Positions 1,556-24,720 of a stretch of DNA of 25,669 nt are shown in pieces. Made by a program: the position numbers and the translations under genes. The notes beneath the pieces were generated by a model. The model had not been told where the DNA came from. It did not search any database and worked only from the letters and a program-made list of their open reading frames with translations. Position 1 is the stretch's first letter; every line of letters begins with the position of its first letter. Origin of the DNA: Candidatus Poribacteria bacterium (GTDB lineage: Bacteria; Abyssobacteria; SURF-5); contig JACRIR010000097.1 of NCBI GenBank assembly GCA_016215705.1, forward strand, positions 1-25,669, written 5' to 3'.

Positions 1556-2962
1556 TCATGTCTTGAAGGATTCGTTCGTGACATGGTATTTCTTCATGAG
1601 GGCGTGGAAATTGGGTCTCTTCATGCCGACCCTTTGGGCTGCGCGGGCAACGTTGCCGTCACATGCTCTGAGCGCCTTTATGAGAAATGCCTTCTGGATT
1701 TGGCTGAAGCTCTCTTCAAAGAGATGCTTCTTGAGAGCTCTGAGGTCTTCCAGCGTTTCCGGTATCGCATCACCTTTCAACCTGTGTTTCATTTGCAGGT
1801 GATCCAGAAGGTAAAGCAGATCGAGGGTATTCGAGTCAGACATGATGACGAGTCGTTCGATGACATTCTTGAGTTCCCTCACGTTGCCCGGCCAGTCATA
1901 ATTGATCAGCGTTTCGAGCGCGTCATTCGTGAAGCCTTCGATCCGTTTGCCCGTCTTGCGGCAGAAGTACCGCAGGAAATGGTACGCAAGCCTGGGAATA
2001 TCATCCTTTCTCTCTCGAAGTGGCGGCAAGTAAACGGGAAAGACACTGAGGCGATAGAAGAGGTCCTCCCTGAAGCTCCCCTCGTCGACCATGGATTTCA
2101 AGTCCTTGTTGGTGGCTGCGATAATTCGAGCGCTTGTCTTCTTAAAGTAACTTGCGCCAACGGGTTTGTAATCATGTGTCTCCAACACCCTCAATAGCTT
2201 TGCCTGAATATCCATCGATAGATTAGCCACATCGTCCAGAAAGAGGGTCCCGCCATCGGCCACTTCAAAGATTCCTTGTTTATCCTGTATTGCGCCCGTG
2301 AACGCGCCTTTTATGTGTCCGAACAACTCGCTTTCGAGAAGACTTGGAGAGAGCGTGCTGCAATCCACTGCCACGAACTGGCGCGCAGCCCTGTTGCTGT
2401 GAGCCTGAATAGACCTTGCGAACAGCTCCTTCCCGGTCCCGCTTTCTCCATAGATGAGCACCGTACTGTCGGTTGGGGCCACCTTCTCGATTTGCTCGAA
2501 TATTCGCGCGATGTGCAGATTCTCGCCCACGATGTTGTCGAGGCCGAACCGGCCGAGAAGTTCCCTGCGCAACGAGAGGTTCTCTTCCACAAGACGCTTC
2601 TTCTCGACCGCCTGTCCGACTGCCAGCACGAGCTCGTCGTCGCCAAAAGGCTTCGCGAGGTAGTCGAATGCCCCGAGTTTCAAGGCCTCGACCGCATTCT
2701 GAACGCTGGAATAACCCGTCATTACAGTCACATATACGTCCGGTCGCTCCCTTCGCGCAGTCCTCAACACTTCCATTCCATCGATATCGGGAAGTTTCAT
2801 GTCCAGCATAGCCACATCGTATGATCCCGTCAATATGGCATCCATGCCGGCCTTACCGTTCATGACGGTATCCACCAAATAGCCTTTCTCGGAAAGCGCT
2901 ATTTTGCAGCCACTGCAAATGGCGGGCTCATCGTCGATAATCAGGATTCTTGCTGGTTCCAT
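1556..2962 (-). CDS. NtrC-family sigma-54-dependent response regulator
   Basis: A 468-residue transcription activator that would be phosphorylated by a partner kinase and drive RNA polymerase carrying sigma-54. The receiver domain spans residues 1-120, with acidic pocket D10/D11, phosphoacceptor D54 and K104. The AAA+ domain follows, with Walker A GESGTGKE (172-179), the sigma-54-contacting GAFTGA loop (219-224), Walker B LFLDDV (240-245) and RLSVFPVYLPPLRER. A Fis-type helix-turn-helix lies at the C-terminus (DGNVARAAQRVGMKRPNFHALMKK). All motifs needed for activity are intact. The ribosome site AAGGCG lies 7 bases before the ATG. It follows the histidine kinase gene on the same strand with a 139-base gap holding palindromes, so the two are very likely a pair. 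The most plausible target is the sigma-54-like promoter of the divergent formate dehydrogenase operon; that link is inference. Confidence 0.95.
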   Translation of the reverse strand: MEPARILIIDDEPAICSGCKIALSEKGYLVDTVMNGKAGMDAILTGSYDVAMLDMKLPDIDGMEVLRTARRERPDVYVTVMTGYSSVQNAVEALKLGAFDYLAKPFGDDELVLAVGQAVEKKRLVEENLSLRRELLGRFGLDNIVGENLHIARIFEQIEKVAPTDSTVLIYGESGTGKELFARSIQAHSNRAARQFVAVDCSTLSPSLLESELFGHIKGAFTGAIQDKQGIFEVADGGTLFLDDVANLSMDIQAKLLRVLETHDYKPVGASYFKKTSARIIAATNKDLKSMVDEGSFREDLFYRLSVFPVYLPPLRERKDDIPRLAYHFLRYFCRKTGKRIEGFTNDALETLINYDWPGNVRELKNVIERLVIMSDSNTLDLLYLLDHLQMKHRLKGDAIPETLEDLRALKKHLFEESFSQIQKAFLIKALRACDGNVARAAQRVGMKRPNFHALMKKYHVTNESFKT

Positions 2963-2980
2963 TTTCTGCGCCTTGCATAA

Positions 2981-2999
2981 GGGACAGAGAGACTGTCCC
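2981..2999 (-). promoter_or_regulatory. Small hairpin in the leader of the NtrC-type regulator
   Basis: Perfect 7-bp stem (GGGACAG and CTGTCCC) with a 5-base loop, just upstream of the ribosome site of the response regulator. Farther upstream, TCTGCGCAAC occurs twice (3023-3032 and 3047-3056), 24 bases apart. This could be a leader structure or a partial terminator between kinase and regulator. Role not established. Confidence 0.35.
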
Positions 3000-3058
3000 G
3001 CGATTTTACGGGGGCGAATTTATCTGCGCAACATTCTCGTCCTTTTTCTGCGCAACGT

Positions 3059-3076
3059 GTGCGAATAAATTCGCAC
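3059..3076. repeat. 18-base palindromic element GTGCGAAT-N2-ATTCGCAC, copy 1
   Basis: Perfect 8-base arms around AA, placed between the kinase and regulator genes. Four further copies lie in the kinase/operon intergenic region (4539, 4586, 4633, 4924). It may be a binding site or a dispersed REP-like repeat. Confidence 0.7.
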
Positions 3077-3101
3077 ATACAAAAAGCTATCTTGATAACA
3101 T

Positions 3102-4328
3102 CTATGTTGACTGAACAGCCTGAAGAACTGGCAGCTCGATTGTGAATCGGCTTCCCCTTCCCGGCCGGCTTGAGACATAGATTTGGCCCTGATGCTTGCG
3201 CACGATCCCGTAGCTCACGGCCAACCCCAGTCCCGTGCCGCTTTTCTTGGTGGAAAAGAAAGGCTCGAAGATTTCCGAGATGTGCTCGGGAGGGATGCCA
3301 GGCCCGCTATCGGCGATCTCTATTTCCACCCACTCTTTCTCCGGTTCGATAATGGAATGAACCATGATCACTCCGCGATCCTCGATGGCCTCAACGGCAT
3401 TCAGGAGTATATTGACAAGCACCTGCTCTATCTGGTTCGGGTCCAGCAGGATATCCGGCATATGGCCGCACAAGTCTTTCTCCAAAGTGATATGGTGAAG
3501 CCGGAACTCGTTCTCGAGGATACTCAGCGCTTTCTCAACAATATCGTTGATGTTAGCCAGCGTCTTGTTTGGCTCTCCGCCGCGCGAAAAATCGAGCAAC
3601 TCCTGGATGATTTTCCCGCACCGCGTAGTCTCGTGGACAATGATCTCCAAACCTTCCTTCAGAAGGCTCTTTTCCGGAACCTTTTTCAGCAGATTCGTGC
3701 TGTAGAGAAGGATGCCGGCTAATGGATTGTTGATCTCATGCGCAATCCCGGCGGCCATCCGGCCCACCGCCGACAGCTTTTGCGCCTGCAGCGTAAGCTG
3801 GTCATACTGGGATTTTCGCGCTTCAAGAGTTCGCACCCTTTCAATCGCGCACCCTCCACAGGCGCCGCACGTAGTGAGGAAGTCCATTTCACTTTGTGAG
3901 AAATCTCTGACCTGCGTGAAGAAAACTCGGAGAACACCCCCCAATTCGTTCTCGAATGTAAGCGGCACAACCACCACCATTCTGATGCCGGCGTCCCATG
4001 CTTCTTCGGCATATTGAATTCGCGAGTCCTCAAGAATATCATCTATGATGAGGACGCTGCGCAGCGACCGCAAATCCGCAATGCCCCCTTCGTGAGAAAG
4101 GGAAACTTTGGTGAGGTACCGCTCTCTCTGGCCATACGCGGTTGAGAACTCGAGTTTTCCCGTTTTGAGATTGAGAACGCGGATGACAGCGCCTTCAGCC
4201 CCAAGTCTGTCGGTGGCCTCTTTCGCCAGAAAGTTCAGAATGTCGGCGGTGCACGTGGTGGAGTGGAGTGATAGACGTATATCCCGAAATGCGCAATAGC
4301 AGGTACCCAGGCCTATTGTAGGCTCCAT
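3102..4328 (-). CDS. Soluble GAF-domain sensor histidine kinase
   Basis: A 408-residue cytoplasmic kinase with no membrane segments. Residues ~22-165 form a GAF-like sensor domain. The HisKA dimerisation helix carries the phosphoacceptor H197 in AGIAHEINNPLAG. The HATPase domain has the N box (N306, N310), the G1 box DSGPGIP (340-346), the F box FEPFFSTK and the G2 box GTGLGLA (364-370). An unusual feature is a CGACGGC stretch at the end of the GAF domain, giving C154, C157 and C160 in CxxCxxC spacing, plus C10, C12 and C26 at the N-terminus. Such cysteines could bind a metal or sense redox state, but a ligand cannot be shown from sequence. The gene sits directly upstream of the NtrC-type regulator and divergent from the formate dehydrogenase operon, which suggests that it senses a cue tied to formate or NADH metabolism. 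Confidence 0.93.
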   Translation of the reverse strand: MEPTIGLGTCYCAFRDIRLSLHSTTCTADILNFLAKEATDRLGAEGAVIRVLNLKTGKLEFSTAYGQRERYLTKVSLSHEGGIADLRSLRSVLIIDDILEDSRIQYAEEAWDAGIRMVVVVPLTFENELGGVLRVFFTQVRDFSQSEMDFLTTCGACGGCAIERVRTLEARKSQYDQLTLQAQKLSAVGRMAAGIAHEINNPLAGILLYSTNLLKKVPEKSLLKEGLEIIVHETTRCGKIIQELLDFSRGGEPNKTLANINDIVEKALSILENEFRLHHITLEKDLCGHMPDILLDPNQIEQVLVNILLNAVEAIEDRGVIMVHSIIEPEKEWVEIEIADSGPGIPPEHISEIFEPFFSTKKSGTGLGLAVSYGIVRKHQGQIYVSSRPGRGSRFTIELPVLQAVQST

Positions 4329-5101: not shown

Positions 5102-5785
5102 GTGATTGCTCCACAAGAGACCATCAAGAAAGAACCCCCCATGCACCCGCATGTCCTCCTGGTTGAGGACGAGGTCAACGTAGCGAAAGGGCTCCAAATG
5201 GTTCTTTCCGAGGAGGGCTACGAAGTCGCCCTGGCCGTAACGGGTCAGACCGCCCTTGAAACGTTCAGGGGCAATGGTTTCAATCTCGTCGTCGCCGATC
5301 TGAGGCTGCCCGATATAGACGGGATGGAATTACTTGAAACGATCAGCGGAGAACGCCCGGAGACCAGGATGCTTGTCATTACGGGATACCCGACCGTAGC
5401 GTCGGCCGTCAAGGCCGTTAAGATTGGGGTCTTCGATTATCTTCGCAAGCCATTCACAGAGGATGAATTCAAGACTGCCGTCAAAGGAGCGCTCCAATCG
5501 AGACAGGGCGCATCAATGGAAGAACTTCTTGTCGAGACCGAACGCGGCAGACTTGTCCAAAAACAGGAGGTAATCCAGGTCCTGGATAGAACGACGCGGG
5601 ACGCTGATTTTTGGACAGCGCTCATGGAAAAGGGGTCTGAGGCCCTCAAGGATTATCAGTTGACCAAGCGAGCCAAGGCCGCTATCGTTTCCGGAGACCT
5701 TGATTGGATTCGAAAGAACGTAGGCGAACTCTCTGAGGAGAAGCTCCGCTTCATCCATAAACGTCTCGAGCGGGAAGCATGGTAA
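5102..5785 (+). CDS. Response regulator with a LigA-like C-terminal module, no DNA-binding domain
   Basis: A 227-residue protein. I chose GTG 5102 because AAAAGGAGG lies 8 bases upstream. An in-frame ATG at 4964 precedes the predicted promoter, and another ATG at 5141 lacks a clear ribosome site. The receiver domain covers about residues 14-135, with the VEDE acidic pocket, phosphoacceptor D66 (ADLRLPDIDG), T94 and K116. Instead of a helix-turn-helix, residues ~160-227 form a small helical module (FWTALMEKGSEALKDYQLT... VSGDL... VGEL) resembling the LigA subunit fold of LigAB-type dioxygenases. The same module ends the formate dehydrogenase catalytic subunit three genes downstream. The gene is the first of the operon, 190 bases before the NuoE-type gene. 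I infer that it acts by protein contact, perhaps on the enzyme complex or the kinase pathway. Confidence 0.85.
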   Translation: MIAPQETIKKEPPMHPHVLLVEDEVNVAKGLQMVLSEEGYEVALAVTGQTALETFRGNGFNLVVADLRLPDIDGMELLETISGERPETRMLVITGYPTVASAVKAVKIGVFDYLRKPFTEDEFKTAVKGALQSRQGASMEELLVETERGRLVQKQEVIQVLDRTTRDADFWTALMEKGSEALKDYQLTKRAKAAIVSGDLDWIRKNVGELSEEKLRFIHKRLEREAW

Positions 5786-5975
5786 TCCGGACCGACGTCA
5801 CTCAAGAAAGGCGAAGGGAACAAGGCGAAAGGGAAACAAAACTGAAGAAACAGAAAGATTGCTTTGTTCCGTTCGCAATAACAAGTGGTTTGAACTGCGG
5901 TTATTTCGCAATTAACCCGGCCCCGGCAGGGTCGGGCGCTCCCAAGAAACCGAATGCCCAAGGAGAACAACACTA

Positions 5976-6506
5976 ATGGGTCAAGTTACACTGCAACCAG
6001 ATTACACAGATGTGGCCTCCGAAGAAAACCATTTACTCGACAAACTTCGGAACGAATTCGAGGGTCGTCCGGATGATCTGATCCCGATGCTCCAGTATGT
6101 CCAGAAAACTCTTGGCTATCTTCCCGAGGGCATACTTCTGGAAATAAGCAGGTTGACGAGCCTGCCGGCCGCGAGAGTCTTCGGGGTTGTTACATTCTAC
6201 GCGCAGTTCCGGCTCAAGCCTATAGGCAAATATACGGTCAAGCTGTGCCGGGGCACAGCCTGCCATGTAAACGCATCGGCCCAGATTCTGGAAGATGTCT
6301 GCAGCTATCTGAATGTGGAGCCGGGGGAAACCACCAAGGACGGCCTTTTCACTCTCGAGATTGTCGCGTGCTTCGGTTCCTGCGCGCTGGCCCCTGTGGT
6401 TGTGATAGACGAGTCGGTTTACGGACTGATGAACTCATCGAAGACGCGGAAGCTTCTCGACGGCCTTCGAAAAGAGCAAAGAGAGGAAACGTCGCAACAT
6501 CCTTGA
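5976..6506 (+). CDS. nuoE: NuoE/HoxE-type [2Fe-2S] subunit of the NAD-linked formate dehydrogenase
   Basis: A 176-residue thioredoxin-like ferredoxin subunit (24-kDa subunit family; FdsG or HydC in related complexes). The helical N-terminal domain (LIPMLQYVQKTLGYLPEG, VTFYAQF) is followed by the thioredoxin-like domain with four [2Fe-2S] cysteines C91, C96, C132 and C136 (CRGTAC, CFGSC). It would pass electrons to or from the flavin subunit encoded next. The ATG has AGGAG about 10 bases upstream. The gap to the NuoF-type gene is 41 bases. The order NuoE-NuoF-FdhA is that of soluble NAD-dependent formate dehydrogenases such as fdsGBA. No membrane or quinone subunit follows, so the complex is not respiratory complex I. 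Confidence 0.93.
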   Translation: MGQVTLQPDYTDVASEENHLLDKLRNEFEGRPDDLIPMLQYVQKTLGYLPEGILLEISRLTSLPAARVFGVVTFYAQFRLKPIGKYTVKLCRGTACHVNASAQILEDVCSYLNVEPGETTKDGLFTLEIVACFGSCALAPVVVIDESVYGLMNSSKTRKLLDGLRKEQREETSQHP

Positions 6507-6547
6507 AAAGGGATGCCGAACCGTCAAAGGAAAAGAGGAACAGGGCG

Positions 6548-8455
6548 ATGGATTTCGCATCAATCAAAGCTGGAGCCGATAGAAAGTGGGCCGAGTTGAT
6601 GAACCTTTCCGAGCCGCTCATCCACATCGGGATGGGCACGTGTGGCAGGGCCGCCGGCGCTGAAGACGTGTTCGCTGCGGTGAAGCACGCTCTCAAGAAT
6701 ACGAATCTCCCGGCCCGGATTCTGCGGGTGGGATGCATCGGAATGTGCTATTTGGAGCCCATGATAGCCGTTCGCAAACCCGGAAGACCTTTCATCTACT
6801 ACGGCAATCTTACGCCGGACAAGACTGAGGACCTTCTTGTCAGCTACCTCTTGAATAACGATCCGAAACCTCAGTCGGCAATATGCACGCTGGGCGAAGG
6901 CTCCACGAACGGAAATGGTTCAATCGACGGGATTCCCCGTTTTTCGGACCTTCCCATGATCAAGCCGCAGGTACGCATCGCCCTCCGCAATTGCGGCCTG
7001 ATCGATCCGGAGGACATCGACCACTATATCGCGCGCGGGGGATACAGTGGGTTGCGGAAAGCGTTGGAACTGCCTCCCGATGATATCATTCGTGAAATCA
7101 AGGAGTCGGGTTTGCGGGGTCGGGGTGGGGCCGGTTTCCCGACAGGCGCGAAATGGGAGTTCGCGAGAAAGGCCGCCGGCAGAGTCAAGTACATAATCTG
7201 CAACGCCGACGAAGGCGATCCCGGCGCATTTATGGATCGCTCGCTGCTTGAGGGGGACCCACACGCGGTTCTCGAAGGAATGGTCATCGGGGCGTATGCA
7301 ATTGGCGCTCACGAGGGTTATATCTATGCGCGCGCCGAATATCCCCTTGCCATCCAGCGACTTCGGATCGCCCTCGAGCAAATGAGGGCGTATGGTCTAT
7401 TGGGCGATAACATCTTGGGCAGCGCGTTTCACTTCAACATCCACATCAAAGAGGGTGCGGGCGCATTCGTATGCGGGGAAGAAACGGCTCTGATGGCTTC
7501 AATCGAAGGCGCGAGAGGGATGCCTCGCTCGCGACCGCCGTTCCCGGCCCAGGTCGGTCTCCGAGGGAAGCCGACGAACATCAACAACGTGGAGACATTC
7601 GGAAATGTTTCGGCCATACTCGAGCGTGGAGCAAAATGGTATTCGAGCTTCGGGACCGAGAAAAGCCGGGGTACAAAGACGTTTTCTCTCGCGGGCAAGG
7701 TGAAACGGACGGGTCTTATCGAGGTGCCGATGGGAATCAAGCTGAGAGAAATCATCAATGACATCGGCGGAGGCATTCCGGGAGGCAGGCAGTTCAAGGG
7801 GGTGCAGACGGGAGGACCCTCCGGCGGATGTATCCCGGCCTCTCTTCTCGACCTGCCGGTCGACTACGAGTCATTGGCCAAGGCCGGCTCGATCATGGGG
7901 TCGGGCGGAATGGTAGTGATGGACGAAGGCACGTGCATGGTCGATATGGCCCGCTATTTCCTGACGTTCACGCAGTCCGAATCGTGCGGGAAATGCATTC
8001 CATGCAGGCTCGGAACAAGGCAAATGCTCGATGTAGTAGAGGATATCTGTAAGGGGAACGGGAAACCGGAGGACTTGAAACTGCTCGCGGACGTGAGTGA
8101 GACCGTACAAAAGGCCTCGCTCTGCGGGTTGGGCCAAACGGCGCCTAATCCCGTTCAGACCACGCTGCGTTACTTCGGCGATGAATATGAATCCCATATA
8201 CTCGAGAAACGATGCGCGGCGGGTGTGTGCAAAGCGCTATTCCATTACGAAATCGATTCGGGCAGATGCACAGGCTGCATGGTCTGCGCCCGCAAGTGTC
8301 CGGTTGGCGCGATCACGGGAGAAAAGAAACAGTTGCATATTATCGACCAAAAGAAATGCACGAAGTGCCGGACATGTTATGACGCCTGCAAATTCGGCGC
8401 TGTGGGAATCTGCACGGAGGGAATGAAAATTGAAAACGGTGACGCTCACAATTGA
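6548..8455 (+). CDS. nuoF: NuoF-type NADH/FMN subunit with extra ferredoxin clusters
   Basis: A 635-residue flavoprotein (51-kDa subunit family; HydB/HymB-like architecture). The start is ATG 6548 with GAGG about 10 bases upstream; a longer in-frame opening is only the nuoE shadow. Domains in order: a thioredoxin-like ferredoxin domain (~23-105) with C32, C63 and C67 but no fourth cysteine at the usual place; the FMN site GRGGAGFPTG (191-200) and NADH region NADEGDPGAFMDR; an SLBB segment; the [4Fe-4S] site C480, C483, C486, C526; and a C-terminal 2[4Fe-4S] ferredoxin (C574, C577, C580, C584 and C604, C607, C610, C614). It exchanges electrons with NAD(H). The added ferredoxin domain is typical of electron-bifurcating hydrogenases and formate dehydrogenases, so ferredoxin may be a second partner; this is not proven. 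The gene overlaps fdhA by 26 bases. Confidence 0.94.
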   Translation: MDFASIKAGADRKWAELMNLSEPLIHIGMGTCGRAAGAEDVFAAVKHALKNTNLPARILRVGCIGMCYLEPMIAVRKPGRPFIYYGNLTPDKTEDLLVSYLLNNDPKPQSAICTLGEGSTNGNGSIDGIPRFSDLPMIKPQVRIALRNCGLIDPEDIDHYIARGGYSGLRKALELPPDDIIREIKESGLRGRGGAGFPTGAKWEFARKAAGRVKYIICNADEGDPGAFMDRSLLEGDPHAVLEGMVIGAYAIGAHEGYIYARAEYPLAIQRLRIALEQMRAYGLLGDNILGSAFHFNIHIKEGAGAFVCGEETALMASIEGARGMPRSRPPFPAQVGLRGKPTNINNVETFGNVSAILERGAKWYSSFGTEKSRGTKTFSLAGKVKRTGLIEVPMGIKLREIINDIGGGIPGGRQFKGVQTGGPSGGCIPASLLDLPVDYESLAKAGSIMGSGGMVVMDEGTCMVDMARYFLTFTQSESCGKCIPCRLGTRQMLDVVEDICKGNGKPEDLKLLADVSETVQKASLCGLGQTAPNPVQTTLRYFGDEYESHILEKRCAAGVCKALFHYEIDSGRCTGCMVCARKCPVGAITGEKKQLHIIDQKKCTKCRTCYDACKFGAVGICTEGMKIENGDAHN

Positions 8456-11360
8456 TGGCCGAAAAGTCACCCTTGCAAAAGGCTCGACGGTATTGGATGC
8501 AATCCGGGCGGCAGGTGTGTATGTCCCCACACTTTGCAACGATGATGACCTCAAGCCTTACGGCGCATGCCGTCTCTGCATCGTGCAGATAGAGGGAATG
8601 AGGGGCCTGCCAACGTCATGCACCACGCCCGCGAATGACGGCATGGTTGTCCATACCGAGACGGAAGAGATTCGGAGGATTCGACGGATTATCATAGAGT
8701 TGGCCATCGCAAATCATCCGTCCGATTGTCTTGTGTGCGACAAGAGTCAGATGTGCGAGCTTCTCAACGTTGCCAGATACGTCGGAGTTTCCGCGGATTC
8801 GGCGCAAAGAATGCGTCGAGGGACTCTTGATTTGCCCGTCGATTCATCGAACCCTGCGTTTGACTTCGATCCGAACAAATGCATCCTGTGCGGAAAATGC
8901 GTCAGGATTTGCGATGAGATTACCGGCACGTGCGCAATTGATTTCGCATACAGAGGGACGAAAACGCTGGTGAGCACGTTCGGGGCCGGACCACTGGCTC
9001 TGTCTGCGTGCAGGAAGTGTGGCGAGTGTGTGGAACGATGTCCCACCGGGGCGCTGATGCCCAAACACGTCATGCTGCCGCAGCGCGAGGTGGAGACCAT
9101 CTGCCCATACTGCGGCGTGGGATGCTCCATCTTCCTGGGGGTTCGCAACGGAAGCATTGTGCGCGCGAGGGCCTCGAACAAGAACGGCATAAATCAAGAA
9201 GGGCTTTGCGTGAAGGGACGCTACGGCCTGGATTTTGTGGGGCATCCGGATCGTCTGACTCACCCCCTGATTCGGAAGGAAGGCGTCCCTCGGGGCGTTG
9301 GCAAAGGCGATCCGGCGAAGGCTTTCCGCGAAGCAAGCTGGGACGAAGCGCTGGACTACGTCGCGCAAAAACTTGGCGGGATTCGTGAGCGCAATGGCGC
9401 CGACGCAATCGGGATCGTCAGTTCGGCAAAATGCACCAACGAAGAGAACTACGTCCTGCAAAAGTTTGCAAGGGCTGCGATCGGAACCAATAATGTCGAC
9501 CACTGCGCGCGTTTGTGTCATGCCTCGACGGTGAGCGCAGCGCTGGCGGCATTCGGTTCCGGCGCGATGAGCAACTCCATCAGCGACATCGATCACGCCG
9601 ACGTCTTGTTTGTCATAGGCTCGAATACCACGGAGTGCCATCCCATTATCGGTCGCAGAATCAAGAGGGCGGTGAAGTTCCACGGCGCCAAACTGATCGT
9701 GGGCGACCCACGCTCGATAGAACTGTGCGATATGGCGGCGGTTCACCTGAACCACTTCCCGGGAACCGACGTGGCTTTGCTGAATGCGATGATGCGCGAG
9801 ATCATTCGGCAGAATCTGCACGACAAGAAGTTCATTGCCGAAAGGTGCGAGGACTTCGAGCCATTTCGGAAATCGCTCGAGCGCTACACGCTCGAATCGG
9901 TGTCCCAGGTTACGGGAGTGGACGAAGAAAAGATTCGGCATGCGGCTGAACTGTTCGGCAAGGCCAAACGAGGAATTGTGCTGTACGGCATGGGGATCAC
10001 GCAGCACACTACTGGAACGGACAACGTCAAAGCAGTGGCGAACTTGCTCATGCTGACAGGGAACCTTGGTCGCCGGGGAACAGGCTTTGCGCCGCTTCGG
10101 GGACAGAACAATGTGCAAGGATCATGCGATATGGGGGCGCTGCCCAACGTTTTTCCGGGATATCAGGCGACTGAGAATTTGCAGGCGCGGGCCAAGTTTG
10201 AGCAGGCTTGGGGACGGAAGCTGAGCGCCCGGCCCGGCCTCACGCTTACCGAGATGTTCCAGGCGGCCCACGACGGTCGGCTCAAGGCAATGTACGTCAT
10301 GGGGGAGAATCCGATGTTGAGCGAGCCCGACGCGGAGCACGCCAAAGAAGCCCTGGCAATGCTCGAGTTCCTTGCAGTGCAGGACGTATTCTTGACGCAG
10401 ACCGCCCAAATGGCTGACGTGGTTTTGCCTGCCGCAAGCTTTGCGGAAAAGGACGGGACTTTCACGAATACGGAGCGCCGGGTTCAACTTGTTCGCAAGG
10501 CAATTGATCCGCCGGGCGAAGCACGGACAGATTGGGAGATTACGGCCTCAATCTCAGCTCGCTTGGGGTACCCGATGAACTATAATTCGAGCAGCGAGAT
10601 CATGGAAGAGATCGCGAAGCTCACCCCGATTTATGGTGGGATTCATCACGACCGTCTCGAAAAAGGCGGGCTTCAATGGCCGTGCAAGAGTCGAAAGGAG
10701 CGAGGCGCCTCGATTCTGCACAAAGACCAATTTACACGAGGCCGCGGCAAGTTCCATGTCGTGCATGACATACCTCCGGCGGAGCTCCCGAGTCGCTCGT
10801 ATCCGTTTGTGCTGACCACGGGCCGCATCCTTGAGCATTGGCACACCGGCAGCATGAGCCACCGGTCTCGCGTCCTCGAAGCGCTTGCATCAGAGAGCAG
10901 CGTCGAGATTAATCCGGCGGATGCTTCCGAGCTTGGGATCGAGCAAGGCGACCTCGTGTCGATAAGTTCCCGCAGAGGCAAAGTCGAGACAAAAGCCAGG
11001 AAAACTCGGCGAGTCAATCCCGGCCAGGCTTTCATGGCCTTCCATTGGTGGGATGCTCCGGCGAATCTCTTGACGAATCCGGCCCTGGACCCTGTCGCCA
11101 AGATTCCCGAATTCAAGGTGTCGTCGGTCAGAGCCATTCTCGCGGTGCTCGAACGCGCCGCGGAGGACAACGCTTTCTTGACTGCGCTGGCTGAGAATCC
11201 GGCGGGTGCGCTGAACGCTTATGACCTGACACCCGAGCATCGGGCCGCGCTTGCTTCAGGCGACGTCGAGGCCCTCGAGAAATGGGTCGGCCCACTCGAA
11301 GACCGCCTCAAGACATGGCTCAAACTGCGACTTAAACGCGAGAAAATATCTGAGGGATGA
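8430..11360 (+). CDS. fdhA: Formate dehydrogenase catalytic (alpha) subunit, cysteine type, with LigA-like tail
   Basis: A 976-residue Mo/W-bis-MGD enzyme that interconverts formate and CO2. It starts at TTG with GGAGGG 8 bases upstream. The NuoG-like front end carries a [2Fe-2S] site (C36, C47, C50, C64), a His-Cys [4Fe-4S] site (H96, C100, C103, C109) and two [4Fe-4S] sites (C151, C154, C157, C161; C194, C197, C200, C204). The catalytic part has a [4Fe-4S] site (C225, C228, C232, C260) and the active-site motif RLCHAST with C363 and H364. The codon at 363 is TGT, so this is a cysteine and not a selenocysteine enzyme. A dinucleotide-binding domain follows. Residues ~909-976 are an extra LigA-like helical module that is nearly a twin of the tail of the operon's response regulator. 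No signal peptide is present, so the complex should be cytoplasmic. Confidence 0.95.
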   Translation: MKTVTLTIDGRKVTLAKGSTVLDAIRAAGVYVPTLCNDDDLKPYGACRLCIVQIEGMRGLPTSCTTPANDGMVVHTETEEIRRIRRIIIELAIANHPSDCLVCDKSQMCELLNVARYVGVSADSAQRMRRGTLDLPVDSSNPAFDFDPNKCILCGKCVRICDEITGTCAIDFAYRGTKTLVSTFGAGPLALSACRKCGECVERCPTGALMPKHVMLPQREVETICPYCGVGCSIFLGVRNGSIVRARASNKNGINQEGLCVKGRYGLDFVGHPDRLTHPLIRKEGVPRGVGKGDPAKAFREASWDEALDYVAQKLGGIRERNGADAIGIVSSAKCTNEENYVLQKFARAAIGTNNVDHCARLCHASTVSAALAAFGSGAMSNSISDIDHADVLFVIGSNTTECHPIIGRRIKRAVKFHGAKLIVGDPRSIELCDMAAVHLNHFPGTDVALLNAMMREIIRQNLHDKKFIAERCEDFEPFRKSLERYTLESVSQVTGVDEEKIRHAAELFGKAKRGIVLYGMGITQHTTGTDNVKAVANLLMLTGNLGRRGTGFAPLRGQNNVQGSCDMGALPNVFPGYQATENLQARAKFEQAWGRKLSARPGLTLTEMFQAAHDGRLKAMYVMGENPMLSEPDAEHAKEALAMLEFLAVQDVFLTQTAQMADVVLPAASFAEKDGTFTNTERRVQLVRKAIDPPGEARTDWEITASISARLGYPMNYNSSSEIMEEIAKLTPIYGGIHHDRLEKGGLQWPCKSRKERGASILHKDQFTRGRGKFHVVHDIPPAELPSRSYPFVLTTGRILEHWHTGSMSHRSRVLEALASESSVEINPADASELGIEQGDLVSISSRRGKVETKARKTRRVNPGQAFMAFHWWDAPANLLTNPALDPVAKIPEFKVSSVRAILAVLERAAEDNAFLTALAENPAGALNAYDLTPEHRAALASGDVEALEKWVGPLEDRLKTWLKLRLKREKISEG

Positions 11361-17914: not shown

Positions 17915-18020
17915 GTGCTGAGTCATAAAAACGTAATCAGTTCCATGGGCCAAAATCTCAGCAAAATCGGACAAAACCGCATGTAACTTCATAAACGAAT
18001 TAATGACTCAGGACACTAGT
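17909..18020. mobile_element. MITE-like inverted-repeat element E3, reaching into the VWA gene
   Basis: 112 bases. The left end ACTAGTGTGCTGAGTCAT is inverted at the right end ATGACTCAGGACACTAGT with one mismatch. The last ACTAGT (18015-18020) overlaps the stop codon of the VWA gene on the minus strand. No gene inside. Confidence 0.5.
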
Positions 18021-19785
18021 TAATCAGCCTTCTTCGGCGTGCGAGATAATCCACGAGCAAGTATTCGCCGAGTCGCTGGGGCGTGGAGAAAAACGCACGC
18101 CCCTTGTTTACCCTAGTCATTTGCTCGACGAAGTCCACGAGTTGAGGCCGCTCATCCAACATGAAGGTATTGATTACAATCCCTTTGCGGGTCAGTCGCG
18201 TCACCTCTTTCATGGTTTCCAGAAATATCTCCGGTGTCGGCGGATAGTCCACGTAGAGGTCGCCATCCCTGCAAAAAGCGGTCGGCTCGCCGTCAGTAAT
18301 GATGATTATCTGGCGGTTTCTCCCGCGCTCGCGCGAGATGATCTCGTCCGCCAGCCTCAGGCCGTCCTGCATATTCGTGAACGGGTTGCCGAGGGAAAGA
18401 TTCACGTGCGGTAGTTCCTCGGTCGTTAACTGGCGCGCGTACGTCGCGAAACCCACAATATGAAGCGTATCGCGGGGAAAACGAGTGCGAACAAGACTGT
18501 CTAGCGCGAGGATAACTTTCTTCGCCGCTTGCAGCTTCCTGTTCTGCGCCATAGTGTAGCTGAGGTCGAGCAGGAGGACATTCGAGCATTCGGTCGAGCG
18601 CCGCTCGTCATAAACTTCGAAGTCGCCGGGGGCGAGACTGATTGGCAACCGGCTTGCGTCGCGCGAGAGCGCATTCATCAGTGTCCTGCTCAGGTGGATG
18701 TTGAAGGAATCGCCGAAATTGTACGCCCTGGTCTGGCTTGTGTCCGGTTGTCCCGTCCCCTTCACTGCAACCTCGTGGCCGCCAAGACTTCCTTTGCCAA
18801 GATTCGAGAAAATGTCGGAAAGCGCTTTCTGGCCGATTTGTCTCATGGCGCGCGGGCTCAATCTCAGAGTCTCGCCGTCGCTCTCGAGGTAGCCGGTTTG
18901 CACAAGTTGCTTGCACAGCTCTTCAATCGTCTTAAGATGCGTCACAGCCTCCGAGCCTAATATCTCCGACAGAAGTGATTCTTCGGCAGCGGATAGCATC
19001 CCCTTCTTCAGCTTCGCCTCGAGCCGTTCCATGTTAAGAATTCGGTTGACGAGCCCAAGCGCATCTTTGAGATCGACCGCTTGGTTTCCCGAAAAGCCGC
19101 TTTGCATATGCGCCCTCTCGACTGCGGCAATACCTCGAGCCTGTTCTGACAGCGACGCCAACTCCTCCCCCATCGACGGGTCTATGGGCTGGTAATCCTT
19201 CAGGTTATCGAGCGCGTGGCTGGGGCTGGGAGAAACCTGCTGGAGCTTAGCCAGTCTGCGGGCTTCTTCATCCCGCAACGCCCGGGTTTTTGCCTCGAGG
19301 TCGTATTTCTGCAAGAAAAGCTGCTCGAATTTCTTTTCGAGGCGCGCCTGGGCCTGCGCCGTATCACGCCTCTTGCCGGAGCGAATCTCATCCATCTTGC
19401 ACATGACTTCGTCCACCCCACGCAGGAACGACTCTATCTTCCGATTAAGCTCCTGTTGCTTCAGCGCCAGTTTTTGCTCGAGCGCCTCGAGCTCGCGGGA
19501 CACTACGGACTGAATCTGCCTGGATAGTTGGTCGATGAGAGGTTCCAACGTGTAGCGCTCAAGCTCCTGGTGTCGCCGATGTTTCAATTGAGAGGCCAGA
19601 TGTTCGAGACCACGGAGGGAATCGCCGTACTTCTGCTTTACTCCCTGCTTGCACAGTTTAAGCAGAGCCTGATCGAGCGAACTCTGTTCGAGGATATGTT
19701 CGGCCAACTGATCCATGATTTCGGCCGAGTCGGGAAGCGGCAGCTCTTCGCGCCGGGCGGTTGCGGAGTATTTGTAAGCGCGCAT
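18016..19785 (-). CDS. VWA-domain protein paired with a MoxR-type ATPase
   Basis: A 589-residue cytoplasmic protein starting at ATG 19785, 4 bases after the ATPase stop, so the two genes are translationally linked. Residues ~1-200 are rich in glutamate, arginine and leucine and look coiled-coil. A middle helical region follows (SLLSEILGSEAVTHLKTIEELCKQL). The C-terminal von Willebrand A domain (~400-570) has metal-site residues D407 (DLSYT, with threonine in place of the usual last serine), T470 and D498 (TDGEP). MoxR/VWA pairs act as chaperone-like or metal-insertion machines, as in ChlI/ChlD, but the target here is unknown. The TAG stop lies within the ACTAGT end of an inverted-repeat element, so the original C-terminus may have been different. 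Confidence 0.87.
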   Translation of the reverse strand: MRAYKYSATARREELPLPDSAEIMDQLAEHILEQSSLDQALLKLCKQGVKQKYGDSLRGLEHLASQLKHRRHQELERYTLEPLIDQLSRQIQSVVSRELEALEQKLALKQQELNRKIESFLRGVDEVMCKMDEIRSGKRRDTAQAQARLEKKFEQLFLQKYDLEAKTRALRDEEARRLAKLQQVSPSPSHALDNLKDYQPIDPSMGEELASLSEQARGIAAVERAHMQSGFSGNQAVDLKDALGLVNRILNMERLEAKLKKGMLSAAEESLLSEILGSEAVTHLKTIEELCKQLVQTGYLESDGETLRLSPRAMRQIGQKALSDIFSNLGKGSLGGHEVAVKGTGQPDTSQTRAYNFGDSFNIHLSRTLMNALSRDASRLPISLAPGDFEVYDERRSTECSNVLLLDLSYTMAQNRKLQAAKKVILALDSLVRTRFPRDTLHIVGFATYARQLTTEELPHVNLSLGNPFTNMQDGLRLADEIISRERGRNRQIIIITDGEPTAFCRDGDLYVDYPPTPEIFLETMKEVTRLTRKGIVINTFMLDERPQLVDFVEQMTRVNKGRAFFSTPQRLGEYLLVDYLARRRRLIN

Positions 19786-19789
19786 AGTC

Positions 19790-21205
19790 CTATCCCTTAT
19801 ACCGCACCTGTGCGCCGAGTTGTTCTTTGTGGACCCGATTGTGCAGATATAAGCCCTCGAGGATAAATTCGACGATTGATGCCAGCACCGCCGGGCCACA
19901 CTGCGGACGGAAGGACTCCGCCCTGGCCAACAGGTCGCTTATCCCGGAGAACTGGCGCAGGTACTCCTCGGAAGGAAGCGAGTCGGATACTATTGCTGTC
20001 GCGCCTTCGTGGAACGCGGCGACAACTCCCGCCAGCGAACCGACGTCGAAATACTTGTCGAAGGTCTGTCTTACCGCCTCGTTGATGAGGTGGCGGATCA
20101 ACTTGTCTTCGCGCCCGTCCTCCGAGAATGATTCAAGCTCGAGCTTGCCCGCCGTGGAGGAGATTATCGCGGGAAGATCGCTGATTCGCGGGGAAACTTC
20201 TTTTTCCCCCAGCCGGATTGCGCGTTTCTCCGCGTTGCTCAACATGCACTCGGTGTTGCTGATGGACATCCGCACGCTCACGCCGGAATGCTGACTTACC
20301 TCTGCGCTTTGCCGCGCGAGAAACGTTATCTGAGTTACGATCTCCTGCATGAAAGGCGGCATCACGACTGCATAGCCGTCATCCTCGAAGCGACGACGCT
20401 CCTGCTCCACGATCTTTGATTCAATCGCCGGAGCAACGGGATAATGGGTGCGAATTTGCGAAGAATACCGGTCTTTGAGAGGTGTTATGATGCGTCCGCG
20501 GTTGGTATAGTCTTCGGGGTTTGCGCTTGCAACAATCAGCACGTCGAGAACGAGCCTGATCGAGAAACCCTTAATCTGGATGTCGCGCTCCTGCATGATA
20601 TTGAACAGGCCGACCTGCACTTTCTCGGCAAGGTCGGGAAGCTCGTTGATCGACAATATGCCTCGATTCACGCGAGGGATCATCCCGAAATGAATTACGT
20701 GCTCGTCCGACAAGTACTTGCCCTCGGCGACCTTTATCGGGTCAACTTCTCCTATAAGGTCGGCGATCGTTACATCGGGAGTGGCCAGTTTTTCGGCGTA
20801 TCTGCGCTCGGATGTTATCCACTCGATCTCGAGCGAGTCGCCCTGCTCCAATGTCTTTTCACGACATGACTTACAAATAGGAGCAAACGGGTTATCGTTT
20901 ATCTCGCAGCCCTTTATGATGGGAATCTCTCTGTCGAGTAAGCGCGTCAGATTGCGGATCAACCGCGATTTGGCCTGGCCCCTTTCGCCAAGGAAAATCA
21001 TGTCGTGTCCTGCCAGGACCGCATTCTCAAGCTGAGGTATAACGGTGCTTTCGTAACCGACTATGTCCTGAAACAGCGGCTCGCCCGTCTTCAGCTTCGC
21101 CATGAGGTTCTTCCGCATTTCCTCCCTGACGGGGAGAACCCGATACCGCGATTTTCTTAACTCCTTCAGTGTTTCGGGTTTCCAGATTTCTTTTGCTGCT
21201 TTCAT
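19790..21205 (-). CDS. MoxR/ChlI-type AAA+ ATPase
   Basis: A 471-residue ATPase. I start at ATG 21205: an upstream in-frame TTG (21286) would lie above the -10 box of a consensus promoter. No strong ribosome site precedes 21205, so the exact start is uncertain. Walker A is GERGQAKS (73-80), a glutamine-containing form found in this branch. The region LSINELPDLAEKVQVGLFNIMQER holds Walker B and the pre-sensor part, VLIVASANPEDYTNRGRI is sensor 1, and PLKDRYSSQIRTHYP follows. An insert carries C100, C111 and C114 (CEINDNPFAPICKSC), suggesting a bound metal. With the VWA partner it resembles the magnesium chelatase I/D pair. No chlorophyll, cobalamin or methanol dehydrogenase gene is near, so the client is unknown. 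Confidence 0.87.
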   Translation of the reverse strand: MKAAKEIWKPETLKELRKSRYRVLPVREEMRKNLMAKLKTGEPLFQDIVGYESTVIPQLENAVLAGHDMIFLGERGQAKSRLIRNLTRLLDREIPIIKGCEINDNPFAPICKSCREKTLEQGDSLEIEWITSERRYAEKLATPDVTIADLIGEVDPIKVAEGKYLSDEHVIHFGMIPRVNRGILSINELPDLAEKVQVGLFNIMQERDIQIKGFSIRLVLDVLIVASANPEDYTNRGRIITPLKDRYSSQIRTHYPVAPAIESKIVEQERRRFEDDGYAVVMPPFMQEIVTQITFLARQSAEVSQHSGVSVRMSISNTECMLSNAEKRAIRLGEKEVSPRISDLPAIISSTAGKLELESFSEDGREDKLIRHLINEAVRQTFDKYFDVGSLAGVVAAFHEGATAIVSDSLPSEEYLRQFSGISDLLARAESFRPQCGPAVLASIVEFILEGLYLHNRVHKEQLGAQVRYKG

Positions 21206-21266
21206 GAAGATTACTTTTTCAGCCTTTGGCCGAACCTCCCTTTCAAAACGAATAAATCCTTCATCA

Positions 21267-21296
21267 ATTATAGTTTCGGGTGACAAAGAATGTCAA
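21267..21296 (-). promoter_or_regulatory. Consensus sigma-70 promoter of the MoxR-VWA operon
   Basis: On the minus strand a perfect TTGACA (21291-21296) and a perfect TATAAT (21267-21272) are 18 bases apart. Transcription would start near 21260, about 55 bases before ATG 21205. This is among the strongest promoter-like sequences in the window and suggests steady expression. Confidence 0.7.
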
Positions 21297-22082: not shown

Positions 22083-22245
22083 TGAAAGAGAAGGACGGGA
22101 CAGTTTCAGAAAGGGGTTTCAATCAGTGAGAGTCTGCGAAATCTGCGGATATGGGTTTTCAATCTACCATTATCTGCATGCACTCGCGATTCCCGTATTC
22201 AATCCAGAATCCAAAATCCAAAATAAATAGATGGAGGGACTTATC

Positions 22246-24720
22246 ATGGCGCAGACCGCCACATGTATCCCGGTCTTATCTCCTCAAGAGGATCGGATCG
22301 AGAAGGGGCTTCCACTTGGACTGGTAAGCGAGGAGGCTCAGCGGAGTCGGGCCAGAATCCACAGGATGCTGAAAGGCTTTCGTGAGAAACCTATCCGCAT
22401 CAACATCGAGAGGGCGCGCTTGCTGACGGAATCGTTCAAGGAGACGGAAGGCCAGCCGGTCATCTTGAGATGGGGCAAGGCGATGGCTCATATCCTCCGA
22501 AACATTTCGGTCCATATCGACGAGGATGAATTGATCGTGGGAAGCGCCGGTCCGCCCGGGCGTTACGCCATTCTGTTCCCGGAACTCGAGGAGCAGTTTT
22601 TCAGTGAGAACGTAAGGCCGACGGAGCCCGGTGAGAAACTCCTCCTGACCGAAGAGGACGCAAAGATTATCAATGAAGAACTCCGCCCCTATTGGATGGG
22701 CAAACAATATCACACGGCTTACATGAACGGCCTGCCGGATGACACACGCAGCCTGATCGAGATGCTCTGCATAGTCACTCCCACGGCGACCGCACGCACG
22801 TGTCTCGCGTGGAATCATGACTATGAAAAGGTTCTGAAGCGCGGGATCAGGGGAATCAAGGAAGAAGCCAAGGCAAAGCTGGCTGCGCTCGATCCGATGA
22901 ACCCCAAGGATCGAGTTGAAAAAGAGCCGTTCCTCAAAGCCGCGCTCATGGTCTGCGACGCCATCGTCGAGTTCGCCCACCGACACGCCCGGCTTGCCGA
23001 AAGCATGGCCGCCGAAGAGCCTGATGAGGAGAGAAAGAAAGAGCTTCTGACGATTGCCGCGGTTTGCAGGCGCGTTCCCGAGAATCCTGCTGAGACGTTT
23101 CATGAAGCGGTTCAGTCCCAGTGGCTTGTTCAAACTGTTTCGCGGCTCGAACAACGCATCGGCGGGACAGTCGGCAACGGAAGAATCGATCAATACTTGT
23201 ATCCATATTACAAGAAGGACGTCGAGGAAGGCCGACTCACGAAGGATGCGGCGCTCGAGCTTCTCGAATGCCTGTGGATAGGCATGGGGAGGAATGTCGA
23301 GATTTACACGATGCCGGGCAACTTCTCATACACCGACGGTTACGCCCACTGGGAGGCCACGACGATCGGCGGCGTGGACGCCTATGGAAAAGACGTAACC
23401 AACGAGTTGTCGTACTTGATGCTCGAATCGAAGAGGGAGTTTCCTCTCAACTATCCCGACCTCGCAGCCCGGATACATTCGGGCACACCCGAGCCGTTCC
23501 TGCACTCGATTGCCCAAACGATCAAGGAGGGCACAGGCTTCCCCAAACTCTTCTTTGATGAGGAGATTATTCCGCTGTTTCTCGCCAAGGGCGGAACGGT
23601 CGAGGAGGCCAACGACTATTGCATTTGCGGATGCACCGAAGCAAAGATGCTGAATCGCGATGCGATCACGACGGGATGCGCCTGGACGAACATGGGCGCA
23701 GTCCTGGAGATGTCATTGAACGACGGCAAACTGAAGCTTTTCGGTGACCGCCAGATTGGAGTCAAGACCGGCGATCCGAGAAGCTTCCGCTCGTATGATG
23801 ACATGTGGAACGCATTCTGCCGGCAGGGCGAGTTCGTGATGAAGCACACTTTCACTCAGCAATATGTGGCGGACACGCTCAAATCGAAATTCATTGCGGC
23901 GCCGATGTCGTCGATGCTGCACGATCTCTGCATGAAGGAATGCAAAGACATGCATTCCGGCCCCATCGAGGGCGCATTGTATCTGGGATTCATCGACACA
24001 CTTGGTTTCGCAACTGCGATAGATTCGCTCGCCGCGATCAAGAAGCTTGTCTTCGATGATGAGAAACTGTCAATGGACGAGTTGCTCGGCGCTCTCGATT
24101 GCAATTTCGAGGGCAAGGAAGCGATACGACAGATGTGCCTGAAAGCTCCGAAATATGGCAACAATGACATATATGCCGATAGCATCGGACGGGACATCGA
24201 GGAGTTCTTTGTCAGGCTGACCCGCAAATACAAGTCGGCCTTCGGCGGAGAACTGGATATTCGATACGTGACGATCACATCGCACATTCCGTTCGGGGCA
24301 GTGCTTGGCGCAACGCCTGACGGAAGAAAGGCCGGAGAGCCCGTTGCCGAGGGCGTGAGCCCGTCGCAAGGCGCTGACACGCACGGACCGACGGCGAGCC
24401 TCGCTTCTATTGCGAGAACCAAGGCGACAGGTTACAAGGAGCGCGCGGCGAGGTTGCTCAATATGAAACTGACTCCGTCCGCGATCCAGGGCCCGAGCGG
24501 CACGAAGAAACTCATGTCGCTGATAAGAACCGCGTGCGACCTGAAGATGTGGCACCTCCAGTTCAATATCATCAACAGAGACACCCTTATCGCAGCCCAA
24601 AAGAATCCGGAAAGATACAGGGACCTGCTTGTGCGAGTGGCGGGCTTCAGCGCGTACTTCGTTGACCTCTCACCGCAATTGCAGGATGAGATTATCAAAA
24701 GGACGGAGCACTCCTTCTGA
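22246..24720 (+). CDS. Glycyl radical enzyme, isethionate-lyase-like family member
   Basis: An 824-residue enzyme of the pyruvate-formate-lyase superfamily. I chose ATG 22246 because GGAGGG lies 7 bases upstream; an ATG at 22231 would overlap that site. The C-terminal RVAGFSAYF carries the radical glycine (G800). GCTE gives the thiyl cysteine C463 and partner E465, the CxE form found in dehydratases and C-S, C-N or decarboxylating lyases, not in true PFL (which has Cys-Cys). Numbered from the upstream ATG the residues become R189, W374, C468, E470, R678 and G805. As I recall, these are the active-site positions reported for isethionate sulfite-lyase. Residues 193 (Ala) and 682 (Ile) differ from the Gln and Phe I recall there. 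A sulfonate or related lyase is therefore possible, but the substrate is not settled. An activase gene follows. Confidence 0.9.
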   Translation: MAQTATCIPVLSPQEDRIEKGLPLGLVSEEAQRSRARIHRMLKGFREKPIRINIERARLLTESFKETEGQPVILRWGKAMAHILRNISVHIDEDELIVGSAGPPGRYAILFPELEEQFFSENVRPTEPGEKLLLTEEDAKIINEELRPYWMGKQYHTAYMNGLPDDTRSLIEMLCIVTPTATARTCLAWNHDYEKVLKRGIRGIKEEAKAKLAALDPMNPKDRVEKEPFLKAALMVCDAIVEFAHRHARLAESMAAEEPDEERKKELLTIAAVCRRVPENPAETFHEAVQSQWLVQTVSRLEQRIGGTVGNGRIDQYLYPYYKKDVEEGRLTKDAALELLECLWIGMGRNVEIYTMPGNFSYTDGYAHWEATTIGGVDAYGKDVTNELSYLMLESKREFPLNYPDLAARIHSGTPEPFLHSIAQTIKEGTGFPKLFFDEEIIPLFLAKGGTVEEANDYCICGCTEAKMLNRDAITTGCAWTNMGAVLEMSLNDGKLKLFGDRQIGVKTGDPRSFRSYDDMWNAFCRQGEFVMKHTFTQQYVADTLKSKFIAAPMSSMLHDLCMKECKDMHSGPIEGALYLGFIDTLGFATAIDSLAAIKKLVFDDEKLSMDELLGALDCNFEGKEAIRQMCLKAPKYGNNDIYADSIGRDIEEFFVRLTRKYKSAFGGELDIRYVTITSHIPFGAVLGATPDGRKAGEPVAEGVSPSQGADTHGPTASLASIARTKATGYKERAARLLNMKLTPSAIQGPSGTKKLMSLIRTACDLKMWHLQFNIINRDTLIAAQKNPERYRDLLVRVAGFSAYFVDLSPQLQDEIIKRTEHSF

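Follow-up and report, generated by a model that had tools for sequence, protein, structure and literature searches.

A helical domain shared by a response regulator and a formate dehydrogenase suggests two-component control of formate metabolism by protein contact

Introduction

What does a response regulator do when it is encoded in one operon with a formate dehydrogenase, lacks a recognisable DNA-binding domain, and ends in the same small domain as the catalytic subunit of that enzyme? This question is raised by a 25,669-nucleotide stretch of a Candidatus Poribacteria bacterium genome (contig JACRIR010000097.1; hereafter the window), in which the regulator and FdhA share a C-terminal domain of about 75 aa (hereafter the tail). 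Anaerobes, often in syntrophy, use formate transfer as a central metabolic currency, and response regulators whose output is protein binding rather than DNA binding are a known principle, with examples such as RssB, PhyR and CheY. The regulators analysed here share that general principle but differ in having an NHLP-clan output domain and a linkage to redox enzymes. In the open literature that we searched, we found no description of an output domain of the NHLP clan that is linked to formate dehydrogenase and also present in the enzyme, nor of receivers fused to a formate channel; both are weak evidence of novelty, as subscription papers lay mostly outside the search. Our survey points to a family of signalling proteins, little noticed so far, that may act on enzymes of formate metabolism by direct touch.

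Results

A response regulator and FdhA of one operon carry homologous tails

In the window, plus-strand genes for the receiver-tail regulator, NuoE, NuoF and FdhA diverge from minus-strand genes for a histidine kinase and an NtrC-type activator (1556-4328; Table 1). A TIGR01591 catalytic subunit together with NuoE and NuoF subunits identifies the complex as an NAD-dependent formate dehydrogenase, alike to other enzymes of the NuoE-NuoF-FdhA type in subunit set, domains and a TIGR01591 score above cut-off, but unlike them in the C-terminal tail of its FdhA, which a relative (locus L018) does not have. The kinase is likely the partner of the receiver-tail regulator and the NtrC-type protein the probable transcriptional arm of the locus, and the adjacency of both genes to the operon is conserved. 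The operon with both tails was found in all three genomes of the window's small phylum and in 7 deltaproteobacterial metagenome-assembled genomes, which supports the earlier proposal that regulator and enzyme share one operon.

The regulator gene is preceded by the ribosome-binding site AAAGGAGG, and both this site and the start position are kept among relatives, most of which have ATG at the position equivalent to the window's GTG. Its receiver matches PF00072 and has the acidic pair, phosphoacceptor Asp, Thr and Lys, while a profile search of the C-terminal part returned no helix-turn-helix or other DNA-binding family, as the first-pass annotation had anticipated. Sigma-54 promoter matches across the window were no commoner than chance, and a simple promoter and terminator scan likewise stayed at chance level.

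Aligned with BLASTP, the two tails are identical at 27 and similar at 40 of 69 positions without gaps (E = 2e-14), close to the roughly 25 identities in about 64 positions counted by hand in the first-pass annotation, which had also placed both genes correctly. Profile-profile comparison agrees (probability 98.2, E = 3e-14, 70 columns), and the FdhA tail used as a query against the entire 5.47-Mb window genome found two copies only, in FdhA and in the regulator (E = 6.5e-9). The homology is real and well past chance, and the two proteins do carry the same C-terminal module. The tails are nevertheless not interchangeable copies, since most regulators end precisely in Trp (34 of the 43 listed tail proteins of all kinds do so; 5780-5782 in the window) whereas FdhA tails have no terminal Trp.

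Table 1 Features of the window and of the surveyed loci
Feature	Position	Strand	Remarks
NtrC-type sigma-54 activator	1556..2962	-	Pfam Response_reg, Sigma54_activat, HTH_8
GAF histidine kinase	3102..4328	-	Pfam GAF_2, HisKA, HATPase_c
Receiver-tail response regulator	5102..5785	+	227 aa, GTG start; Pfam Response_reg 1.8e-26, residues 18-128
Receiver domain of regulator	5153..5485	+	
Regulator tail	5549..5782	+	Os1348-type NHLP-clan helical domain
NuoE-like 2Fe-2S thioredoxin-fold subunit	5976..6506	+	Pfam 2Fe-2S_thioredx 1.3e-44
NuoF-like FMN/NADH subunit	6548..8455	+	Ferredoxin domain at C-terminus; Pfam Complex1_51K 4e-47; start read from sequence
FdhA	8430..11360	+	976 aa; NuoG-type N-terminus, molybdopterin formate dehydrogenase, tail; TIGR01591 854.8 bits vs. 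cut-off 666
FdhA tail	11109..11357	+	Os1348-type NHLP-clan domain
VWA-domain and AAA-domain genes	18016-21286		
Pyruvate formate-lyase-like glycyl radical enzyme	22231-24720		
Second FdhA of window genome	G000:C259:10566-12557		
Untailed FdhA beside receiver-tail gene	L018, L083-L086, L088, L093, L094, L096, L100, L104, L133-L135		
Receiver-NuoE fusions	L018:3407-4408, L109:337-1449		Receiver N-terminal
Receiver-FocA fusions	L089:10164-11435, L092:8072-9367, L097:2664-4073, L099:8628-9899		
Tailed GcvH-like proteins	L098:9959-10900, L106:9910-10800		
Tail-coding stretch with in-frame TAG	L095:1411-1644	-	

The tail is assigned to the NHLP/Os1348 clan and is a probable structural relative of LigA

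The FdhA tail scores 48.0 bits against NF038399 (Os1348 family, NHLP clan), above the curated cut-off of 40. At 21.6 bits (E = 1.7e-4) the regulator tail falls under that cut-off and is yet profile-homologous to the FdhA tail, and we therefore file it as a divergent relative of the family rather than a member. Of 28 diverse tails compared with this model, 27 are matched at an E-value of 0.1 or below.

The AlphaFold2 prediction for the FdhA tail, made with 17 sequences from the window and the loci, folds entirely into helices, six in number (pLDDT 80). In a model of the whole regulator, the receiver is followed by a linker of low confidence and then by a tail made of helices. The best structural matches of the FdhA-tail model are LigA (PDB 1bou; VIA Z 7.1) and the C-terminal domain of DesB (PDB 3wku; Z 7.6), with a range of Z 7.0-7.6 and Foldseek E above 1, followed by the LigA-like domain of the borosin precursor SonA (Z 6.0); the similarity in predicted fold covers most of the domain in all of them. 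These matches are modest and support placement in the NHLP clan without proving it.

Membership of LigA itself was rejected: the FdhA tail reaches 12.6 bits against Pfam PF07746, whose cut-off is 25.3, and no dioxygenase is present here. The LigA fold named in the first-pass annotation may hold as a structural resemblance but fails as a family assignment, and we place the tail in the NHLP/Os1348 clan, a probable relative of LigA in structure. Os1348 (PDB 6lk7) is a solved member of this clan, and its helical domain family is that of both tails. As a free protein of 85 aa, it has been linked to antibiotic activity, and it forms a six-helix homodimer in the crystal (PMC7726476). Unlike free Os1348, the domain serves here as the output domain of a receiver and as an add-on to an enzyme; the tails also have an extra C-terminal helix past the 63-position model, to which regulators add the conserved terminal Trp.

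Tailed FdhA is always accompanied by a receiver-tail gene, but not the reverse

Receiver-tail proteins are far wider in distribution than tailed FdhA. In 395 genomes of the Desulfobacterota, the phylum of L018, the tail profile matched in 35, mostly in receiver proteins of 200-270 aa without a tailed FdhA, and two broader samples of other phyla gave receiver-tail proteins in three genomes (two families; L133-L135) as well as distant free NHLP-like proteins of 74-90 aa.

We identified tailed FdhA in 13 loci, with a receiver-tail gene upstream in 12 of the 12 whose upstream DNA is intact; the remaining locus (L078) ends at a contig edge and was left out of this count. In 14 further loci, a receiver-tail gene has an untailed FdhA no more than 10 kb away; L018, for instance, retains the regulator beside an FdhA that ends at 916 aa. 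Of 36 loci scored, 24 have FdhA no more than 10 kb from the receiver-tail gene (26 of 38 when the window and L017 are counted), on the same strand except in two loci, although only two FdhA above cut-off are present in the whole 5.47-Mb window genome; the linkage extends to the three genomes beyond the Desulfobacterota sample. Whether the tails occur apart as often as together, a question left by the first-pass annotation, therefore depends on the tail considered: that of FdhA never occurs without the regulator in the 12 intact loci, while that of the regulator often stands beside untailed FdhA or without FdhA, a strict linkage in one direction.

The receivers of this family appear competent for signalling, with the phosphoacceptor Asp conserved in 35 of 35 scorable receivers from an alignment of 36 tail-bearing proteins, and the switch Thr and the Lys each present in 35 of the 36.

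Two side observations concern single genes. The second FdhA of the window genome contains an in-frame TGA, which likely encodes selenocysteine, and gave no match in the search with the tail. In L095, a tail-coding stretch with an in-frame TAG lies immediately upstream of NuoE, and is perhaps a decayed or split receiver-tail gene.

FdhA tails group with receiver tails of other loci

All tailed FdhAs fall into a single clade (97/96), next to which the untailed L018 FdhA branches. In a tree of the tails, those of FdhA again form one clade (99/86), which joins the receiver tails of L093, a double-receiver protein, and L096 (100/98) and is not sister to the regulator tail of its own operon; with few columns and long branches, the deeper order of this tree is unsure. 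This grouping led us to reject the idea that the regulator tail was recently duplicated into FdhA. The simplest reading of the trees is that FdhA would have captured, once, an output domain of the regulator type encoded beside formate dehydrogenases, although a gain before the split followed by loss in L018 would also fit.

Neighbouring genes and receiver fusions point to formate machinery

In many loci, genes for a kinase and an NtrC protein adjoin the receiver-tail gene, often along with one for an additional single-domain receiver. Further neighbours include FdhA genes with an interrupting in-frame stop codon (probably for selenocysteine) together with HdrA-like and FlpD/MvhD genes, and also NuoE/NuoF, NiFe hydrogenase with MTHFR, ATP synthase genes and a DsrC-like gene, so that the regulator's target may not always be formate dehydrogenase. 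The ATP synthase genes (F-type; alpha, gamma, beta) lie a few kb from receiver-tail genes in L089, L101 and L110.

The tail itself occurs in several arrangements: one receiver carries two tails in tandem (L090), another tail follows a pair of receivers (L093), and L103 encodes the tail on its own. It is also borne by GcvH-like proteins, of the lipoyl-carrier family, whose genes adjoin HdrA-like genes and, in L106, also FdhA.

Receivers were additionally found fused to components of formate metabolism. NuoE carries an N-terminal receiver in two loci, in one of which (L018) the fusion shares an operon with untailed FdhA; a search of further Desulfobacterota genomes at E 1e-60 recovered the original genome only, the L109 fusion being too divergent for this threshold. 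A second type of fusion joins a receiver to a FocA-type formate/nitrite channel and lies beside a receiver-tail gene in four loci, in cassettes ordered kinase, receiver, (receiver-tail), receiver-channel. Full-length receiver-FocA proteins were present in 10 of the 395 genomes, most adjoining a kinase gene, and 6 of these 10 genomes had no receiver-tail gene detectable by the searches made. No formate/nitrite channel was found in the window's own genome, and a plasmid search with the regulator returned distant receiver matches only. By Rosetta-stone reasoning, these fusions would place receivers and tails in touch with formate machinery, and direct control is the reading favoured by the fact that receivers were fused independently to NuoE and to channels of the FocA type.

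Discussion

We consider it somewhat short of an even bet (probability roughly 0.45) that formate machinery is under two-component control through protein contact, with the tail as a docking or dimerisation module. The histidine kinase would have two outputs, acting through the NtrC-type protein on transcription and through the receiver-tail protein, by contact, on the formate dehydrogenase complex. Phosphorylation of the receiver would expose or pair the tail, which would then dock on the complex; as a small domain of the Os1348/NHLP clan built only of helices, the tail would serve protein interaction through dimerisation. In the window's clade, FdhA would have taken up a tail from a related regulator, probably as a built-in pairing partner, and such a tail-tail heterodimer would be the most parsimonious arrangement here; other lineages may arrive at the same outcome through a receiver fused to NuoE or to the FocA formate channel.

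The homology and conservation of the tails, the linkage to FdhA, the fusions, the conserved phosphoacceptor and a single origin of the FdhA tail are observed; the kinase pairing, physical docking, tail-tail pairing and any effect on activity are our inference. The explanation also draws on the grouping of FdhA tails with receiver tails, on the crystal homodimer of Os1348 and on the six helices shared by the FdhA-tail model. Direct control of the complex, first put forward from homologous tails in one operon and a regulator with no DNA-binding domain, has gained from the intact phosphorylation site, the regulator upstream of tailed FdhA in all 12 intact loci, and the fusions. Against control by contact count the ATP synthase, DsrC-like and NiFe hydrogenase genes beside some receiver-tail genes, the retention of the regulator in L018 beside an untailed FdhA, the modest structural matches, and the fact that operon linkage would be equally expected of a regulator that merely tunes transcription.

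Such an indirect role is the strongest competitor, although we regard it as rather unlikely: the tail would merely homodimerise, the regulator would affect transcription by serving the kinase that it has in common with NtrC as a phosphate sink or a relay partner, and the FdhA tail would be an unrelated re-use for enzyme oligomerisation. The Os1348 homodimer, the many receiver-tail loci with untailed FdhA, and the signalling genes that so often adjoin receiver-tail genes all suit this explanation, which leaves unaccounted for the receiver-tail gene upstream of every tailed FdhA, the receiver fusions to NuoE and FocA, and the strong bias of the family to formate genes. The first-pass annotation had offered, as an example of direct control, phosphorylation-dependent competition of the free module for the tail's docking site; in such mimicry the regulator tail would oust the FdhA tail from a site (e.g., on NuoF) and thereby toggle electron transfer. 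Homologous tails within one operon and their unfailing co-occurrence when FdhA is tailed speak for competition, but we now judge it improbable, since proteins found beside untailed FdhA or no FdhA cannot have competition for that site as their general function, and since the two tails are separate old subfamilies that differ at their C-termini. More improbable still is that regulator and FdhA use their tails to bind a common third protein with a role in maturation, modification or chaperoning. NHLP/LigA-like domains do serve as handles for modifying enzymes in RiPP precursors, the clan relatives Os1348 and SonA are proteins of the RiPP-precursor type, and GcvH-like carriers bear tails as well, but the annotated loci revealed neither a modifying enzyme nor any other constant partner gene near the tail genes.

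If control by contact is correct, redox enzymes and a substrate channel would join the short list of two-component targets controlled in this way, and the NHLP/LigA-like domain would gain a signalling role beyond peptide natural products; the receiver fusions render the idea directly testable. A bolder proposal, which we put forward as speculative and somewhat doubtful, is that a two-component system controls a metabolic flux by contact: receivers, once phosphorylated, would pair their NHLP-clan domains to dock on formate dehydrogenase, and would also be built into NuoE and FocA formate channels as gates, such that anaerobes would set formate exchange within seconds, beyond what transcription alone allows.

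Other genes in the window

Downstream of the operon, the window also carries VWA-domain and AAA-domain genes, as well as a pyruvate formate-lyase-like protein that may be a source of formate or another type of glycyl radical enzyme.
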